From the IMG/VR virus record IMGVR_UViG_3300032607_001543, positions 1-23,554 of that record: a stretch of DNA of 23,554 bases; one strand, given 5' to 3'. The notes under the pieces were generated by a model, which was not told where the DNA came from, did no database searches, and saw nothing but the letters and a program-made list of their open reading frames with translations. The stretch is from a virus. How positions within the stretch are numbered: position 1 is the first letter of the stretch; each line of letters begins with the position of its first letter. The position numbers were made by a program, and so were the translations under genes. Positions 11,133 through 23,172 of the stretch are shown here, piece by piece.

Positions 11133-12284
11133 GTGATTGACCAAAGAATACACACAGTTTTGCTTGATGAGGGTATCAGGCAAACCAGTACTATTGAATT
11201 AATTGCTAGCGAAAACTTTACCAGTCAATCAGTAATGGATCTTTGCGGAAGTATTTTGACCAACAAGTACGCAGAAGGACTTCCGGGCAAACGTTACTAC
11301 AATGGATGCACACATGTAGATGAAATTGAAAACATCGCCATCGAGTATGCTACTCAATTGTTTAATTGCAATTATGCCAATGTGCAACCTCACTCCGGTG
11401 CCAATGCTAATCTGGCAGTATTTAAAGCGTTTCTAAAGCCAGGTGATGTAATTGTGGGCATGGATCTAGCCAGTGGCGGACATTTGAGCCACGGTGCCGG
11501 CGTTAACATCAGCGGTGCTTGGTTTGAGTCACATGTCTACGGAGTGGACGATAATGGGTTTATTAACTACGAAGCAGTTGCAGCACTAGTACAAGCCAGT
11601 AAACCTGCTATGCTGATTGCCGGAGCTAGTGCGTATAGTCAAAAAATTGATTGGGAATGTTTCCGTGACATTGCAGACTCAGTGGGCGCTATTCTACTTG
11701 CAGATATCAGTCATTACTCGGGATTGATTGCAGGCGGTGAGTATCCTAGTCCATTCCCCCATGCTGATGTAGTTACTACCACCACACACAAAACTCTGCG
11801 TGGTCCGCGAGGCGGTATGATTCTTTGGAACAATGAAGAATACAGCAGGAAGATCAACAGTGCTATTTTCCCAGGCACACAAGGCGGTCCACTCATGCAT
11901 GTTATTGCAGCCAAGGCACAATGTTTCTATGAAGCACTGCAGCCAGATTTTATGTTGTATGCCAAACGTATTCGAATCAATGCACATGCCATGGCACAGA
12001 CATTTTTAGATGCAGGCATCGGTGTAGTAAGTGGCGGAACACAGTGCCACATGTTTACAGTAGACCTCCTTAAAGAACAGCTGAGTGGTAAACAATATGC
12101 CGACTTACTGGAAGCACATGGCATCACTGTGAACAAGAATAGCGTTCCGGGCGAGATTAGAAGTTTTGTAGAAACTTCTGGTGTGCGTATTGGAGTTGCT
12201 GCTGAGACCACCAGAGGGCATGACGAAGCTTGGTTTAAAGAATTGGCCATTAGAATGATTAATATTCTACACGATAAAAAGTAA
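11133..12284 (+). CDS. glyA: Serine hydroxymethyltransferase
   Basis: A 383-residue PLP enzyme that converts serine and tetrahydrofolate to glycine and 5,10-methylene-THF, the one-carbon donor for thymidylate synthesis. Conserved features include E48 with Y55-Y56 in AEGLPGKRYY, NVQPHSGANAN (83-93), D191-x2-H194 (ADISH) and the PLP-binding K220 in TTTTHKTLRGPRGG. It also has FPGTQGGPLMHVIA and an Arg in SGVRIG. The start is a GTG behind AAAGGAAAA. It is about 34 residues shorter than E. coli GlyA, lacking the final helix. The segment following the Arg reads GVAAETTRG where bacterial enzymes usually read GTPA-T-RG. Its position between nrdA and nrdB links it to DNA precursor supply. An active enzyme is likely. 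Confidence 0.93.
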   Translation: MIDQRIHTVLLDEGIRQTSTIELIASENFTSQSVMDLCGSILTNKYAEGLPGKRYYNGCTHVDEIENIAIEYATQLFNCNYANVQPHSGANANLAVFKAFLKPGDVIVGMDLASGGHLSHGAGVNISGAWFESHVYGVDDNGFINYEAVAALVQASKPAMLIAGASAYSQKIDWECFRDIADSVGAILLADISHYSGLIAGGEYPSPFPHADVVTTTTHKTLRGPRGGMILWNNEEYSRKINSAIFPGTQGGPLMHVIAAKAQCFYEALQPDFMLYAKRIRINAHAMAQTFLDAGIGVVSGGTQCHMFTVDLLKEQLSGKQYADLLEAHGITVNKNSVPGEIRSFVETSGVRIGVAAETTRGHDEAWFKELAIRMINILHDKK

Positions 12285-15852: not shown

Positions 15853-16302
15853 ATGAAAAATATCTTAATAGCATCACTATTTGCTCTAACCACTGTATCT
15901 GTACATGCAACTGAAGTTGGTACCAATGTGGCTCGTGACTACTCGGGCGCGGATCGAAATGCATTTGGTATTACAGTAGGTAAGCAATTAGGTGTAATTA
16001 ATACCACACTTGGTCTGTCTCGTGAATATCGCGGCGCAAATGATTCGACTACGTTAAGTCTAATGGGTGGCTATAACGTTTTTAAGATTTTTGCAGTCAC
16101 ATTGTCAGTTGAAGCTGGTACTGCTTATGTGCGTAATCAATCAAGTGCTAGCGGTTATGCTTTAGTAGGCGGAGTGGGTGCACAACTGCCATTAACAAAA
16201 ACTGTTTCTCTCACAGCAGATATTACACGGCAATACGGACAATCGCGAATTAAAGACTCTAATGGTAATAATATTTCAGTTGGTATGAAATATAATTTCT
16301 AA
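15853..16302 (+). CDS. Outer-membrane beta-barrel-like protein with signal peptide
   Basis: A 149-residue protein. Residues 1-19 (MKNILIASLFALTTVSVHA) are a clear Sec signal peptide with cleavage after AHA-type VHA. The mature part has alternating polar/hydrophobic strands (FGITVGKQLG, TTLGLSREY, TTLSLMGGYNV, YALVGGVGAQL) and ends VGMKYNF with a C-terminal Phe, the recognition signal for BAM-assembled barrels. About eight strands fit. The frame extends upstream to a TTG at 15820, but the ATG is correct because of the RBS and signal peptide. It is driven by a perfect sigma70 promoter and closed by a strong terminator, so it is its own early-type unit just before cyoAB. A role in changing the host envelope or blocking superinfection is a guess. 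Confidence 0.8.
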   Translation: MKNILIASLFALTTVSVHATEVGTNVARDYSGADRNAFGITVGKQLGVINTTLGLSREYRGANDSTTLSLMGGYNVFKIFAVTLSVEAGTAYVRNQSSASGYALVGGVGAQLPLTKTVSLTADITRQYGQSRIKDSNGNNISVGMKYNF

Positions 16303-16426: not shown

Positions 16427-17362
16427 ATGTTAAAGAAGTATCGACAAACATGCATGTCTAATCTTTATAAGAAGATAAAATATGTATGTTTGTTACCAAT
16501 GCTGCTATTAGCTGCATGCAACACTGTAGTATTAAACTCGTCTGGTTATATTGCACAACAACAAGGCGATTTAATTATTATTGCAACAGTACTAATGCTA
16601 ATTATAGTAGTACCCGTCATTACATTAATATGTGTATTCGCATGGCGATATCGAAAAAGTAATATTTCAGCAGACTATCAACCAACATGGCACCACTCCA
16701 CTAAATTAGAATTAGTTATTTGGCTTGCTCCGCTGTGCATTATTATCATACTTGGTATTATTACTTGGATCACAACCCATCGGCTTGATCCGTATCGTCC
16801 GTTAGACCATATTAACAAAACTATTGCAGTAACTAAAAATATGGCACCTGTTGAAATTGAAGTAGTAGCACTAGATTGGAAGTGGTTATTCATTTACCCG
16901 AAGCTGGGGGTAGCTACAGTTAATCAAGTAGTAGTACCAGTTGATACACCAATTCATTTTAAGATTACATCCAGTACTGTGATGAATAGTTTCTATGTTC
17001 CTGCATTGGCTGGACAAATATATGCAATGCCGGGCATGCAAACCACATTGAATGCTGTTATTAATCAGTCGGGTATATATAACGGATTTTCCTCTAATTA
17101 TAGCGGTGCAGGATTTTCAAACATGCGCTTTAAATTTTATGGAATTAGTCAAGTGGAATATGAAAAGTGGATATCTGCAACTAAAAGAAATACTAAAATA
17201 CTGGATCAAAAAGAATATCTTAAATTAGTAGTGCCCAGTCAAAAAGATCCTGTGCAATTTTACGGTACTACTGATCCTATGCTTTATTTTAAGATTTTAA
17301 ATAAATGTGTTGCATTAGATTCTGTGTGTGAGCACAGTATGCATCATACAGTTTCTCATTAA
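16427..17362 (+). CDS. cyoA: Cytochrome bo3 ubiquinol oxidase subunit II
   Basis: A 311-residue subunit II of the proton-pumping quinol oxidase that reduces oxygen to water in the inner membrane. It has a lipoprotein signal ending LLAA-C31, two transmembrane helices (about 48-73 and 95-116) and a periplasmic cupredoxin-like domain (about 140-290). That domain carries DWKW (150-153), VMNSFYVP (185-192), GQIYAMPGMQT and NYSGAGFSNM (224-233). These match E. coli CyoA closely (DWKWFFIYP, VMNSFFIP, SYSGPGFSGM). The cysteines and histidine of a CuA centre are absent, as expected for a quinol rather than cytochrome c oxidase. The tail is His-rich (EHSMHHTVSH), as in E. coli. cyoB starts 15 bases later. 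It lies within a phage genome behind a late-type box, with base composition like its neighbours. Family call certain. Confidence 0.96.
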   Translation: MLKKYRQTCMSNLYKKIKYVCLLPMLLLAACNTVVLNSSGYIAQQQGDLIIIATVLMLIIVVPVITLICVFAWRYRKSNISADYQPTWHHSTKLELVIWLAPLCIIIILGIITWITTHRLDPYRPLDHINKTIAVTKNMAPVEIEVVALDWKWLFIYPKLGVATVNQVVVPVDTPIHFKITSSTVMNSFYVPALAGQIYAMPGMQTTLNAVINQSGIYNGFSSNYSGAGFSNMRFKFYGISQVEYEKWISATKRNTKILDQKEYLKLVVPSQKDPVQFYGTTDPMLYFKILNKCVALDSVCEHSMHHTVSH

Positions 17363-17377
17363 TTATTCGGAGATATA

Positions 17378-19378
17378 ATGTTAGAAAATATTGATATTGT
17401 TAAATTATTATTTGGACGATTAACATTGTCTGCTATTCCTTACAATGAACCAATTGTTGTGGGAACATTCATCGGTGCAAGTATTATTGGAATGGCAGTG
17501 CTAGTGTGGATTACCTATTGTAAATTCTGGGGTATTCTTTGGCGTGACTGGATTACCACAGTTGATCATAAACGCATAGGTATTATGTATATCATACTAG
17601 GTATTATAATGCTCATTCGTGGATTTACGGATGTACTACTCATGAGAGCTCAACAAGTGCTATCATTCGGAGATTCACAAGGATTTTTACCACCCCATCA
17701 CTATGATCAAATCTTTACAGCACATGGTGTAATTATGATTTTCTTTGTAGCAATGCCGTTTGTAACTGGACTTATGAATTATGTGATTCCGCTGCAACTG
17801 GGATCACGTGATGTATCATTTCCATTTTTGAATAATATTAGTTTTTGGCTCACTGCTTTTGGATCCATTCTTATTACCCTGTCGTTATTCATTGGAGAAT
17901 TTGCCAAAACAGGATGGTTGGCATATCCACCACTATCAGGAATAATGGCCAGCCCCGATGTTGGAGTAGACTATTATATATGGGCATTACAAATTGCCGG
18001 AGTAGGAACTTTATTGTCTGGAATTAACTTAGTAGCTACTATTATTAAGACTCGTGCTCCGGGCATGACCATGATGAGGATGCCTATTTTTGTTTGGACA
18101 TCATTATGTGCAAACATTTTGATTATTGCGGCATTTCCAGTACTAACTGCAGTACTAGGCATGCTAAGTCTTGACAGATTAGCAGGTACACATTTCTTTA
18201 CTGGAGAACTTGGCGGCGACGCAATGATGTACGTAAACTTAATTTGGATATGGGGGCATCCCGAAGTATATATTTTAATTTTGCCAGCATTTGGTATATA
18301 TTCAGAAATAGTAAGTACCTTCAGCGAAAAAAGATTGTTTGGCTACACCAGCATGGTATATGCTACAGTTGCTATTACACTGTTAGCTTATATGGTATGG
18401 TTGCATCATTTCTTTACCATGGGTGCAGGTGCCAGCGTAAACGCATTCTTTGGTATTACTACCATGATTATTAGTATTCCCACTGGTGCGAAAATATTCA
18501 ACTGGTTATTCACAATGTACAAAGGACGTATTCGATTTGAAGTTCCCATGTTGTGGACTATGGGATTTATGATCACATTTGTAATTGGTGGAATGACTGG
18601 AGTGCTAATGGCAGTACCGGCGGCGGATTTTGTACTGCATAATAGTTTATTCTTAGTTGCACACTTTCATAATGTAATTATCGGTGGTGTAGTTTTTGGC
18701 AGTTTTGCAGGCATCAACTATTGGTTTCCAAAAGCATTTGGTTATTCGTTAGATGCATTTTGGGGTAAAATGAGTTTCTGGTTCTGGACCACTGGATTTG
18801 TATTAGCATTTGCCCCGTTATACGTATTGGGTCTAATGGGAGTAACGCGACGGATGAGCCATTTTGATGATCCGTCATTGCGAATATGGTTTATTATTGC
18901 AGCTATTGGAGCAGTGTTGGTACTGGTAGGAATTATTAGCTTCGGAGTGCAGTTAGTGGTCAGCTATAAACGCAGAGCCAAACTAACAGATACATCAGGT
19001 GATCCGTGGAACGGTAGAACATTGGAGTGGTCAACATCCAGTCCGCCGCCATCTTATAACTTTGCATTTACACCGCGAGTACACGAAATTGATGCATGGC
19101 ATGACATGAAAAGTAATGATTACATTCGACCTACAACGGGATTCCGAGACATACATATGCCGCGTAACACTGCTGCAGGATTTATAATCTCTGCTATAAG
19201 TGCAGTATTAGGATTTGCAATTATTTGGAATATGTGGTTGTTGGCAATTTTAGGGTTGGCTGCAGTAGTGGCAGCAATTGTCTACCATACTTTTAATTTC
19301 AATAGGGATTATTATGTGCCGGCTACAGAAGTAACTGCAATTGAAGATATTCGAACTAACGCAATGTCAAAAACATAA
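17378..19378 (+). CDS. cyoB: Cytochrome bo3 ubiquinol oxidase subunit I
   Basis: A 666-residue heme-copper oxidase subunit I, close to the 663 residues of E. coli CyoB and similar along its whole length. Visible catalytic residues, ten positions beyond E. coli numbering, are: low-spin heme ligands H116 and H431; high-spin heme ligand H429; CuB ligands H294, H343 and H344; the cross-linked Tyr Y298. Proton D-channel residues N134, D145, N152 and E296 and the K-channel residue K372 are present. The quinone-site set is R81, D85, H108 and Q111. Nothing needed for catalysis is missing, so an active, proton-pumping core is expected if the host supplies heme O (CyoE) and subunits III and IV. No cyoC, cyoD or cyoE follows; a terminator does. 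RBS CGGAGA lies nine bases before the ATG. Family call certain. Confidence 0.97.
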
Positions 19379-19504: not shown

Positions 19505-19681
19505 ATGAAAATACGATTCTATCATATGTGGATATATCGATTATATTTTTGGATATGGACTCCTATTCTGCGCAGCCGGCCTATGATGCTAAAGGGAATG
19601 ATCGAGTATCAAATTGAATGGCTTAACAGACGTGAAGATGAAGTTAAACAAGCTAGATCCAAATTTAAGGTGATTAAATGA
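19505..19681 (+). CDS. Small aromatic-rich, probably membrane-associated protein
   Basis: A 58-residue basic protein. Residues about 4-23 are rich in Trp, Tyr, Phe and Ile (FYHMWIYRLYFWIWTPIL) and could insert in or lie on a membrane. The rest is a charged helix (IEYQIEWLNRREDEVKQARS). The frame is open a little further upstream to a TTG at 19493, but the ATG at 19505 fits the predicted leader from the promoter at 19447. No clear SD is seen. It overlaps the next gene by ATGA. Function unknown; the overlap and promoter support expression. Confidence 0.6.
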   Translation: MKIRFYHMWIYRLYFWIWTPILRSRPMMLKGMIEYQIEWLNRREDEVKQARSKFKVIK

Positions 19682-20064
19682 CAATGCATCTCGCAGTAGG
19701 GCTAACTACGACAGGTAAGAAAAAAGGCAAGATCAAGTGGGCTAGTGCAGAGCACAAACGACAGGCAGAGCAATTAAACAAAGATTGGAATGATATCAAA
19801 CAGAAGCACGGCGCACCCGCTGATATTAGTAAAAAAATCAGTGTACTGAAAGCTAAAACATATGTAGCACCAAAGGTTATGCGCCGCACTGACGACGACG
19901 TTAAAATTAACAGTTTGAATTCAAGTTGGGACCCTTGTTTGAAAGCACCCAATAAAATTTACTCGGGGACGAAAATGATTGGTATTGCTCAGATGGCGAA
20001 ATCCAACGCTGTTCCTGTATTCAATAATGATGCTGTAATTGACATTGCTAGAATGCGTCGGTGA
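19678..20064 (+). CDS. Conserved phage protein of unknown function
   Basis: A 128-residue basic protein. It has an N-terminal MHLAVGLTTTGKKKGKIKWAS motif followed by a charged helix (KRQAEQLNKDWNDIKQKH). The C-terminal half contains YSGTKMIGIAQMAKSN and ends VIDIARMRR. I recall both ends (AVGLTTTGKKKGK and Y-G-K-GI-TM-KSNAVPVF) as a recurrent conserved protein in T4-like aquatic phages, without a known function. The lysine-rich N-terminus suggests nucleic-acid contact but this is weak. It is coupled to the previous small gene by ATGA. Confidence 0.7.
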   Translation: MTMHLAVGLTTTGKKKGKIKWASAEHKRQAEQLNKDWNDIKQKHGAPADISKKISVLKAKTYVAPKVMRRTDDDVKINSLNSSWDPCLKAPNKIYSGTKMIGIAQMAKSNAVPVFNNDAVIDIARMRR

Positions 20065-20116: not shown

Positions 20117-21565
20117 ATGAAAACAACTTTAAACGAAAAAATAATCGCCTATCTTGCATTGTTAAGCGGATTAACAATTTCAGCTGTTGCAATATATTAT
20201 TCAGTGTCAGGATTAGTGGCAATATTCGCGGCTGCTACTATTCCCATCATAGTTATGGGTGTAACTCTCGAATTGAGCAAAATTGTGGCATCAGTATGGC
20301 TTAAACAAAATTGGAAGACTGCACCCAAACTAATTAAACTATACCTGTGTATTGCAGTTGCATTATTAATGTTGATTACCTCCATGGGTATTTTTGGATT
20401 CCTTAGTAAAAGTCATTTGGATCAAAATATGCCTACTGCGGAAGCAAGCGCACAGATTGCACTGCTAGATGAAAAGATTCTTACTGAAAAAAATAATATT
20501 GATGCTACTCAAAAAGTTATTTCTCAAATGGATAATGCAGTTGACCAAATCATCGGACGCTCAAATGATGAACGTGGCGCATCACGCTCAGTTGCACTTC
20601 GACGTAATCAGCAAAAAGAACGTGCGATACTAACCAGTAGCATTGCACAATCGCAAAAAATAATTGCAGCATTAAATCAGGAAAAAGCTCCTATCTCTGT
20701 TACGCTACGGCAAGTAGAAGCTGAAGTTGGACCAATCAAGTATATTGCTGCATTCTTTTATGGCGCAACTGATACTGCTATTTTAGAAAAAGCAGTAACA
20801 TGGGTAATTATACTAATCATTGTTGTATTTGACCCACTTGCACTTATTCTACTAATCGCCAGCCAAGTGAGTTTTCAGCAATTCAGAGAACGAAAAATAA
20901 TCGAAGAGGAGCATGCTCGTATTATTCCAGTAGTATTACCAGTCGAACATGCCGTAGTAGAAAGTGAAGTATATGAATCTGAAGCAATTGATAACTCAGT
21001 AGTATCTGATGCAGTGTTTGAACATTCTGCAGTTAAGGAACCTGAATCAATAAATCCAGAACATGTTCAGGATACCAAGTACGATTATGATGACGAATTA
21101 ACCATTCAGCAGTTTGATCAAATTCGAAGTGTAGTTGCTACTGAAAATGAATTCTTTGCTCAAAATGATGCTATTTCATTGTTTGAAGAAGTGTTGCCAG
21201 TCAACCATGCAGAGACTGCAGGGAAGACGCCAAAATACGAAGAAATGATAGAAACTTTTAGCCGATATGATACAGCACCTGCGCCTGTTGTTAGACGCGC
21301 AGAGAGTTTGTTAATGAAGACCAAAGTATTTCCTCGCCCTGAATTAGTGCTATCAACTGAGTATATTCAAAATGAAGAACAGCAAGAAAGCAGCAAGTGG
21401 ACCGATACTACTACCAAATCTATTTCCCATGAGGAATACATGAATATCAGTCAGGACAAGCTGGAAGACTATATTATCGAAGTAGTAAAGCAAGTAAGAT
21501 CAGGACAACTACAAATGAGTGAAGTGCCTGATATATTGCTTGCCGAAATTAAGACACGGATTTGA
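20117..21565 (+). CDS. Multi-span membrane protein with a long coiled coil and acidic tail
   Basis: A 482-residue protein. Two adjacent N-terminal hydrophobic spans (about 9-29 and 31-51) are followed by a third (about 74-97). A charged helical region (about 105-210) contains DEKILTEKNNIDATQKVISQ and SVALRRNQQKERAILTSSIA. A fourth span lies at about 225-255, with the motif VFDPLALILLIAS. The remaining 220 residues are an acidic, probably disordered cytoplasmic tail with a final helix. I recall the N-terminal half (NEKI-AYLAL-SGLTISA, TSMGIFGFLSK, EAEVGPIKYIA) as a conserved membrane protein of marine T4-like phages of unknown role. Possibilities include host membrane remodelling or superinfection immunity. 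The stop is one base before the next ATG. Confidence 0.7.
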   Translation: MKTTLNEKIIAYLALLSGLTISAVAIYYSVSGLVAIFAAATIPIIVMGVTLELSKIVASVWLKQNWKTAPKLIKLYLCIAVALLMLITSMGIFGFLSKSHLDQNMPTAEASAQIALLDEKILTEKNNIDATQKVISQMDNAVDQIIGRSNDERGASRSVALRRNQQKERAILTSSIAQSQKIIAALNQEKAPISVTLRQVEAEVGPIKYIAAFFYGATDTAILEKAVTWVIILIIVVFDPLALILLIASQVSFQQFRERKIIEEEHARIIPVVLPVEHAVVESEVYESEAIDNSVVSDAVFEHSAVKEPESINPEHVQDTKYDYDDELTIQQFDQIRSVVATENEFFAQNDAISLFEEVLPVNHAETAGKTPKYEEMIETFSRYDTAPAPVVRRAESLLMKTKVFPRPELVLSTEYIQNEEQQESSKWTDTTTKSISHEEYMNISQDKLEDYIIEVVKQVRSGQLQMSEVPDILLAEIKTRI

Positions 21566-21566
21566 T

Positions 21567-21965
21567 ATGAATGGTAAAATTACACTAATAACAGCTCCTG
21601 ATTTTTTTGAAAATAACAATAAGAGCATACTGTTTATTCATCTAAGTGATGAAGATCAGGATGCAGTCAGCCGATGGTTAGCACTGCATCCTATTGTTGA
21701 TAATATTAATCTATATGTTTATCACGGAGAACCAAATGTTCCCTGGCTTATGTATGCACTAAGTCGATGCGACTATAAATATGCGGACCTAGATGGATTA
21801 AATTATATTACATCTGCGTTAAGCGGATACATGTTAGGAAAATACGAGTTCTATTATAAAACAGTAGATGTTAATGTGGCTGCAGTATACAGCCACATTA
21901 ACAATAATAAAATTAATCGCATAGAGCATTTTTTGGAGAAAGTTTTTGGTAACGAAACAAACTAA
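21567..21965 (+). CDS. Conserved phage protein overlapping clpX
   Basis: A 132-residue protein starting MNGKITLITAPDFFENNNKS. Strand-helix alternation (ILFIHLSDEDQDAVSRWL, then INLYVYHGEPNVPWLMYALS) suggests a small alpha/beta domain. The C-terminal half contains SALSGYMLGKYE and AAVYSHINNNKINRIEHFLE. I recall this as a conserved protein in T4-like aquatic phages; function unknown. The frame is open upstream, but the ATG at 21567 is preferred because it follows the previous stop by one base. The last 20 bases overlap the clpX start, and a 14-bp hairpin lies inside its 3' end. The pairing with clpX hints at an adaptor role, which is speculative. Confidence 0.7.
   Translation: MNGKITLITAPDFFENNNKSILFIHLSDEDQDAVSRWLALHPIVDNINLYVYHGEPNVPWLMYALSRCDYKYADLDGLNYITSALSGYMLGKYEFYYKTVDVNVAAVYSHINNNKINRIEHFLEKVFGNETN
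21869..21903 (+). promoter_or_regulatory. 14-bp stem-loop inside the 3' end of the gene upstream of clpX
   Basis: TGTTAATGTGGCTG (21869-21882) and CAGCCACATTAACA (21890-21903) are perfectly complementary over 14 bp around a 7-base loop (CAGTATA). It lies within coding sequence, 31 bases before the clpX RBS and 42 before its TTG start. No T-run follows. It may be an RNA processing site, a stability element or a control on clpX translation. Confidence 0.75.
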
Positions 21966-23172
21966 TCACACATGTGGATTCTGTGGAAAAAATAAAGAAA
22001 ATGTTGAAAAAATGATCGCTGGTGATCATTCTGCAATATGTAATGATTGTGTTGAAGTATGTGCATCCATACTCAGTGATGCAAAAGTCAAACAAGTAAA
22101 TATTAATCATCAAACTTTAAACCCATCTGTAATCAAAGATTATCTTGATGAATACGTGATTGGACAAGATAGAGCAAAAATTGCTCTAAGTGTAGCTGTT
22201 AGCCAACACTTTAAACGAATTAATAATCCCAGTAAGACTATCAAATTGGAAAAAACCAATGTGTTGTTATTGGGTCCAACTGGCACTGGAAAAACCATGC
22301 TTGCCCGTAAGATTGCCGAACATTTAGATTTGCCATTTGCTATCTGTGATGCAACTGGTATTACTGAAGCAGGATATGTGGGAGATGATGTGGAAAGTAT
22401 TCTGTCTCGCTTGATTGCTGAAGCAGATGGCGATTTAGAAAAAGCAGCTCATGGTATTGTATACATTGATGAGATAGATAAAATTGCTCGCAAGGGAGAG
22501 AATGTATCAGTTACTCGCGATGTGTCAGGTGAAGGGGTACAGCAGGCATTATTAAAAATGATCGAAGGTAGCATAATGCGTATTCCTTCTACTGGAAAAC
22601 GCAAGCATCCGGGCAGTGACATGCAAGAAATTGATACATCGGGTATATTGTTTATCTGTGGTGGTGCATTTGTAGGACTTGACAAAATTATACAGAAACG
22701 GCTGGAACATCGCAGCATCGGATTTCATGCCACATCAGTTGATAAAGAAGTAACCGAGCACATTTATCGTTCAGTGTCCACTAAGGATATTATTCAGTAC
22801 GGTTTCATTCCGGAATTTGTTGGTCGATTTGGATTGATTACCAATGTGGATGAACTGGATGTTGACAGCTTGGTAAGTGTGCTCAAAGAACCAAAAAATA
22901 GCTTAATCAAACAATATCAGTATATTTTTGAACTGGACGGCATTGAATTAGAATTTAACAATGAATCGCTAGTATACATTGCGGAGCAGGCAAAGGAACT
23001 TAAAACAAATGCTCGTGGATTGAAAAATATTATTGAAGCAGCACTGCTCGAATATCAGTTTAATGCAGTGGATTTAAAGATGCGTGGCCTAACTAAAATC
23101 ATCATTACTAAAGAGTCAATGTGCGGTGGCTCTGCAACATTGGTATTTGATAAAACATTAATTAGCAAATAA
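21946..23172 (+). CDS. clpX: ClpX, AAA+ unfoldase of the ClpXP protease
   Basis: A 408-residue ATP-driven unfoldase (E. coli ClpX has 424). The N-terminal zinc-binding domain has C10-x2-C13 and C32-x2-C35. The AAA+ core shows Walker A GPTGTGKT (110-117), pore-1 loop GYVG (143-146), Walker B IVYIDEID with D175-E176, RKH loop (219-221), FIPEFVGR (287-294) and sensor-2 R357. The ClpP-docking tripeptide I258-G259-F260 is intact, so it could feed substrates to host ClpP. No clpP is in the window. The start is a TTG at 21946 with a strong SD (GGAG, seven bases upstream); the next in-frame ATG would remove half the zinc domain. It overlaps the preceding gene by 20 bases. A role in degrading host or phage regulators is inferred. 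Confidence 0.95.
   Translation: MVTKQTNHTCGFCGKNKENVEKMIAGDHSAICNDCVEVCASILSDAKVKQVNINHQTLNPSVIKDYLDEYVIGQDRAKIALSVAVSQHFKRINNPSKTIKLEKTNVLLLGPTGTGKTMLARKIAEHLDLPFAICDATGITEAGYVGDDVESILSRLIAEADGDLEKAAHGIVYIDEIDKIARKGENVSVTRDVSGEGVQQALLKMIEGSIMRIPSTGKRKHPGSDMQEIDTSGILFICGGAFVGLDKIIQKRLEHRSIGFHATSVDKEVTEHIYRSVSTKDIIQYGFIPEFVGRFGLITNVDELDVDSLVSVLKEPKNSLIKQYQYIFELDGIELEFNNESLVYIAEQAKELKTNARGLKNIIEAALLEYQFNAVDLKMRGLTKIIITKESMCGGSATLVFDKTLISK

Follow-up and report, generated by a model that had tools for sequence, protein, structure and literature searches.

The virus record IMGVR_UViG_3300032607_001543, which is analysed here over its whole length of 23,554 bases and is referred to as the window, carries a genuine and intact phage-encoded ClpX at positions 21946-23172, whose predicted function is that of an unfoldase. 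Most likely, this ClpX serves as the ATP-dependent unfoldase subunit of a Clp protease that is encoded by the phage itself. We infer the pairing with a phage ClpP from the intact ClpX, from the selection acting on its docking tripeptide, from the presence of ClpP, ClpA and ClpS in long related records, and from the clades shared with jumbo phages. The record is incomplete; it covers 23.5 kb of a phage genome that is far larger, and ends 382 bases after the end of clpX.

In the proposed mechanism, a large (jumbo) phage would produce its own ClpX, which would assemble as a hexamer, grip its substrates via the pore loops and zinc-domain contacts and unfold them, while docking onto the ClpP barrel through the IGF loop. 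The partner would most likely be a ClpP of the phage itself, whose gene is expected tens of kilobases downstream and thus beyond the fragment, and the same barrel would probably be served by phage ClpA and ClpS as well. The substrates may be proteins of regulation or replication, from either the host or the phage.

ClpX domains and the docking loop

The clpX gene (21946..23172, plus strand, as are all features given for clpX and its product below) encodes 408 amino acids and starts with a TTG codon, which is preceded at a distance of 7 nt by GGAG (21935..21938), a likely ribosome-binding site. The start position is kept in relatives, which use GTG, ATG or TTG at the homologous site, and the gene overlaps the preceding 132-aa open reading frame (21567-21965) by 20 bases. 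Pfam assigns AAA_2 (4.5e-29) and zf-C4_ClpX (PF06689, 3.3e-13) domains. The ClpX equivalog model NF003745 of NCBIfam matches residues 4-396 with 523.5 bits against a cut-off of 359, and TIGR00382 scores 496.4 bits against a cut-off of 370.75. The best solved relatives are ClpX of E. coli and other bacteria with E-values of about 1e-121 to 1e-117, including E. coli ClpX 8e91 with a phmmer E-value of 5e-121, and about half of the residues are identical in matches to ClpXP structures. The AlphaFold2 monomer reaches a mean pLDDT of 72 and finds ClpX chains as its best PDB matches.

An alignment to 80 bacterial and 82 viral ClpX sequences revealed every motif named in the sequence-only reading, which had described a ClpX with zinc domain, Walker motifs, pore loops and IGF tripeptide. 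The C4 zinc-binding domain (residues 9-44, 21970..22077) holds Cys 10, 13, 32 and 35 and is followed by Walker A GPTGTGKT (residues 110-117, 22273..22296), the pore-1 loop GYVG (residues 143-146, 22372..22383), Walker B IVYIDEIDK (residues 171-179, 22456..22482), the RKH loop core KRKH (residues 218-221, 22597..22608) and the IGF tripeptide at the tip of the ClpP-docking loop (residues 258-260, 22717..22725). The pore-1 segment reads GYVGDD, with GYVG being the same in all 83 phage ClpX compared, and both the arginine finger (IPEFVGR) and sensor 2 (NARGLK) were found. All catalytic and docking motifs are thus shared with the E. coli ClpXP system, whereas the window protein differs from E. coli ClpX by a shorter IGF loop, by KRKH instead of GRKH and by phage-specific zinc-domain residues. 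Lys218 beside the RKH motif (G227K) is specific to the phages, bacterial ClpX having glycine at this position. The expected divergence of the zinc domain was also borne out, as most relatives replace E. coli Q22 by K, R26 by E and A30 by V; the window ClpX keeps alanine at the third of these positions. Bacterial ClpX in general served as the reference for the zinc-domain and pore-loop comparison.

The ClpP-docking tripeptide is defined as [L/I/V]-G-[F/L] in PMC8745299, which also describes the contacts made by the loop, and the IGF of the window fits this definition. Across 67 distinct phage ClpX sequences, Gly259-Phe260 is invariant and is preceded by Ile or Val, in a single case by Met. Most of the neighbouring loop residues belong to the most variable positions of ClpX, many of them at entropy percentiles of 85-100. 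An invariant Gly-Phe inside a hypervariable loop points strongly to selection on the docking tripeptide, so that the loop can be regarded as functional in evolutionary terms, in line with the initial reading, and judged by its sequence the protein very probably retains docking to some ClpP. VGF is used by about half of the phage ClpX and bacterial ClpX shows [ILVM]GF; the IGF alone cannot discriminate between a phage and a host ClpP. The AlphaFold2 monomer does not strengthen the docking argument, because its confidence in the IGF loop is too low, with a pLDDT below 50 for residues 257-269.

ClpP, ClpA and ClpS in related phages

The sequence-only reading had described a phage ClpX without ClpP and had built on this absence a stand-alone unfoldase that hijacks the host protease. 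We found no clpP within the 23,554-base record, so the statement holds for this incomplete fragment; as a trait of the lineage it fails, because the long relatives carry clpP. ClpP (PF00574) scored above the family cut-off in 8 of 49 related records, including all five ClpX-selected ones of at least 164 kb (G008, 322 kb; G016, 208 kb; G030, 355 kb; G041, 229 kb; G042, 164 kb). As the ClpP of G041 and G042 are identical, these five records amount to about four independent cases. The sequence-only reading had itself named a phage clpP elsewhere as the finding that would remove the hijacking argument. Such a gene is present in each relative that is long enough, albeit the record of the window phage itself is truncated, and neither the premise of a stand-alone ClpX nor the hijacking argument derived from it is supported. 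No ClpP was found in the other 41 of the 49 records, all of which are 141 kb or shorter and come without a completeness estimate. Fragmentation is the simplest reason for these ClpP-less records, unproven as it is record by record.

The other components of the system are present in the long relatives as well. All five long ClpX-selected records encode ClpA, and four of the five encode ClpS as well. Of the records selected through ClpP, G069 (141 kb) and G060 (327 kb) likewise hold ClpX, ClpA and ClpS. The phage ClpA proteins measure about 756-777 amino acids in G008, G016, G030, G041, G042, G060 and G069, most of which also encode ClpS, and a VGF docking motif was seen in the phage ClpA L255 of record G068.

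Ten related records carry clpX and clpP on one contig, which allowed us to take the spacing from their coordinates. In nine of them clpP lies downstream of clpX at a distance of 26-100 kb, namely 26 kb in G008, 54 kb in G069, about 60 kb in G009 and G028, 64 kb in G038, 75 kb in G060, 89 kb in G016 and about 100 kb in G041 and G042. In G030, clpP is found 322 kb upstream in the linear record, and would lie about 30 kb downstream only if the record were circular. Since the window stops 0.4 kb past clpX, clpP is not to be expected in the fragment. A lone clpX in such a fragment therefore says nothing on clpP, which corrects the inference from absence, and clpP is most likely present in the window phage's own genome. 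The uncultivated environmental lineage thereby joins a short list of phages with both halves of ClpXP.

Jumbo phages with a ClpX of their own have been described before, and the window gene adds another case. Seven Clp-family proteins including ClpX, ClpP, ClpA, ClpB and ClpS were reported for Atu_ph07 (PMC6102473), the Sinorhizobium jumbo phage AP-J-162 encodes ClpX (PMC11242549), and ClpP, ClpS, ClpA and ClpX have been discussed across jumbo phages (PMC7824862). The ClpX of Agrobacterium phage Atu_ph07 and Sinorhizobium phage Phosso, both of which also encode ClpP, share the domain plan of the window ClpX and are about 49-50 % identical to it; their clpX genes, however, lie beside topoisomerase and IF-3 genes, whereas that of the window is found in an nrd/grx block. 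Bacillus phage G encodes an adjacent ClpP-ClpX pair (gp257-gp258), its ClpX being 48 % identical to that of the window and placed elsewhere in the tree. Pseudomonas phage PA5oct combines ClpX, ClpS and ClpP in one genome, with ClpP about 10 kb from ClpX; its ClpX is 42 % identical to the window protein and sits on a very long branch.

Some records had to be set aside as phage ClpX comparators, as Acinetobacter phage MD-2021a, which shows the gene order tig-clpP-clpX, and the EC22.5-2, SA 1298 Kay and Listeria LM records are probably mislabelled bacterial contigs. CAKLQH020000005.1 (gene order tig-clpP-clpX), OR845177.1, OR849975.1 and similar entries likewise bear phage labels on bacterial-looking contigs and contaminate searches for phage clpX and cyoB. 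In NC_071039.1, a phage ClpX is labelled ‘porphyrin biosynthesis’ and a phage ClpP ‘head maturation protease’, both being cases of annotation carry-over.

The probable ClpP partner and alternative roles

No experiment on a phage ClpX working with or binding a phage or host ClpP was found in the literature. The Ser-His-Asp triad is kept in all 88 phage ClpP of the lineage, which form one clade (97) that groups with the ClpP of Atu_ph07, Phosso and PA5oct (98). The positions compared between phage and bacterial ClpP, among them F49 and I90, are putative docking-cleft residues of E. coli ClpP. Most of them are common to both groups, which would favour docking of the phage ClpX onto host ClpP, either alone or besides a phage ClpP, in order to redirect proteolysis or to outcompete host ClpX. 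The intact IGF makes such cross-docking sterically plausible as well, given the [ILVM]GF of bacterial ClpX. We nevertheless consider this improbable, because the long-genome relatives encode their own ClpP and would not need that of the host. Moreover, F49 is changed to H in 75 and I90 to Y in 84 of the 88 phage ClpP, which together with the VGF of many phage ClpX fits a co-adapted pair, even if this is a correlation only.

A role of ClpX that does not depend on ClpP has precedents, as host ClpX remodels MuA complexes without protease. The phage protein could accordingly act mainly as a protease-free remodelling chaperone, for example by disassembling nucleoprotein or virion complexes. Jumbo-phage ClpX and ClpA have also been suggested as translocases or assembly aids in a comparative review (PMC7824862). 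A protease-free chaperone has no need of a docking tripeptide, yet Gly-Phe has been kept without exception, and we regard this role as very unlikely.

The phage-encoded ClpXP favoured here can be taken one step further. In this extension, which we offer as a speculation with rather low odds, a widespread jumbo-phage lineage would possess a self-contained ClpX/ClpA/ClpP/ClpS system, whose ClpX-ClpP interface has drifted so that it runs insulated from and parallel to that of the host, and the 132-aa protein encoded next to clpX would be a dedicated ClpX partner. If the phage ClpXP were interface-specific, it would represent a natural orthogonal protease and offer a handle on the remodelling of the host proteome by jumbo phages.

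Phage lineage and neighbourhood of clpX

A scan of viral contigs yielded 186 ClpX relatives confirmed by tblastn, the best 80 of which are 62-77 % identical to the window ClpX, whereas the closest cellular ClpX we detected reach about 53 %. A tree of 89 sequences unites the viral ClpX, including that of the window, in one clade with an SH-aLRT support of 100, to which Phosso and Atu_ph07 are sister (SH-aLRT 95). The window clpX is hence a phage gene, and its lineage is an established one. An origin of the open reading frame from host DNA or from an assembly artefact, as might be suspected from the several GenBank ‘phage’ records with clpX that resemble bacterial contigs, can practically be dismissed in view of these identities, the strong viral clade and the nrdA-nrdB-grx-...-clpX block that the window has in common with dozens of viral contigs.

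The full gene order common to the relatives is nrdA-nrdB-glutaredoxin-...-128-aa-482-aa-132-aa-clpX. The three genes directly 5' of clpX occur in 74-79 of 80 related loci. They encode, all on the plus strand, a 128-aa phage protein (phrog_27048; 19678..20064; syntenic in 76 of 80), a probable membrane or coiled-coil protein of 482 aa (20117..21565; syntenic with clpX in 74 of 80) and the 132-aa protein (21567..21965), which has no assigned function and stands immediately 5' of clpX in 79 of 80. Further upstream, nrdB is present in 40 and nrdA in 22 of the 80 loci, many of which end before reaching the nrd genes. A full-length serine hydroxymethyltransferase gene, glyA, was noted at 11133-12284 between nrdA and nrdB of the window; its only homologue among the 80 loci, in L062, is partial.

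The AlphaFold2 model of the 132-aa protein has a pLDDT of 93. A fold search returned weak nucleoside deoxyribosyltransferase-like and receiver-like matches (best E-value 1.6e-3), the PHROG matches are marginal, and no homologue was found in the GenBank phage collection, so that the protein was not adopted as a ClpX adaptor and is kept as a lead. It was not found in related records without clpX.

The more unusual feature of the window is the pair of quinol oxidase genes located a short way upstream of clpX. Both cyoA (subunit II, 16427-17362) and cyoB (subunit I, 17378-19378) are complete; they exceed the NCBIfam cut-offs for TIGR01433 (CyoA) and TIGR02843 (CyoB), respectively, but stay below those of stricter PRK models. 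COX1 was absent from all 50 related records inspected, and the viral-contig scan for cyoAB returned L262 only, seemingly bacterial DNA beside a prophage, and nothing comparable. The pair has an outer-membrane-like gene on one side and the gene of the 128-aa protein on the other, both flanks being conserved in the lineage. As the flanking genes are only about 190-250 bases apart in L014 and L011, cyoA and cyoB seem to have been inserted into a variable cargo slot, which in the window lies between 15853-16302 and 19678-20064, 2-4 kb upstream of clpX. In other relatives the slot holds RuBisCO-like, TctC receptor, Porin_4, rubrerythrin and class II aldolase domains, with cargo located at 3970-5229 in L010, 5034-6008 in L066, 7444-8727 in L005, 6766-7323 in L054 and 6936-7628 in L007.
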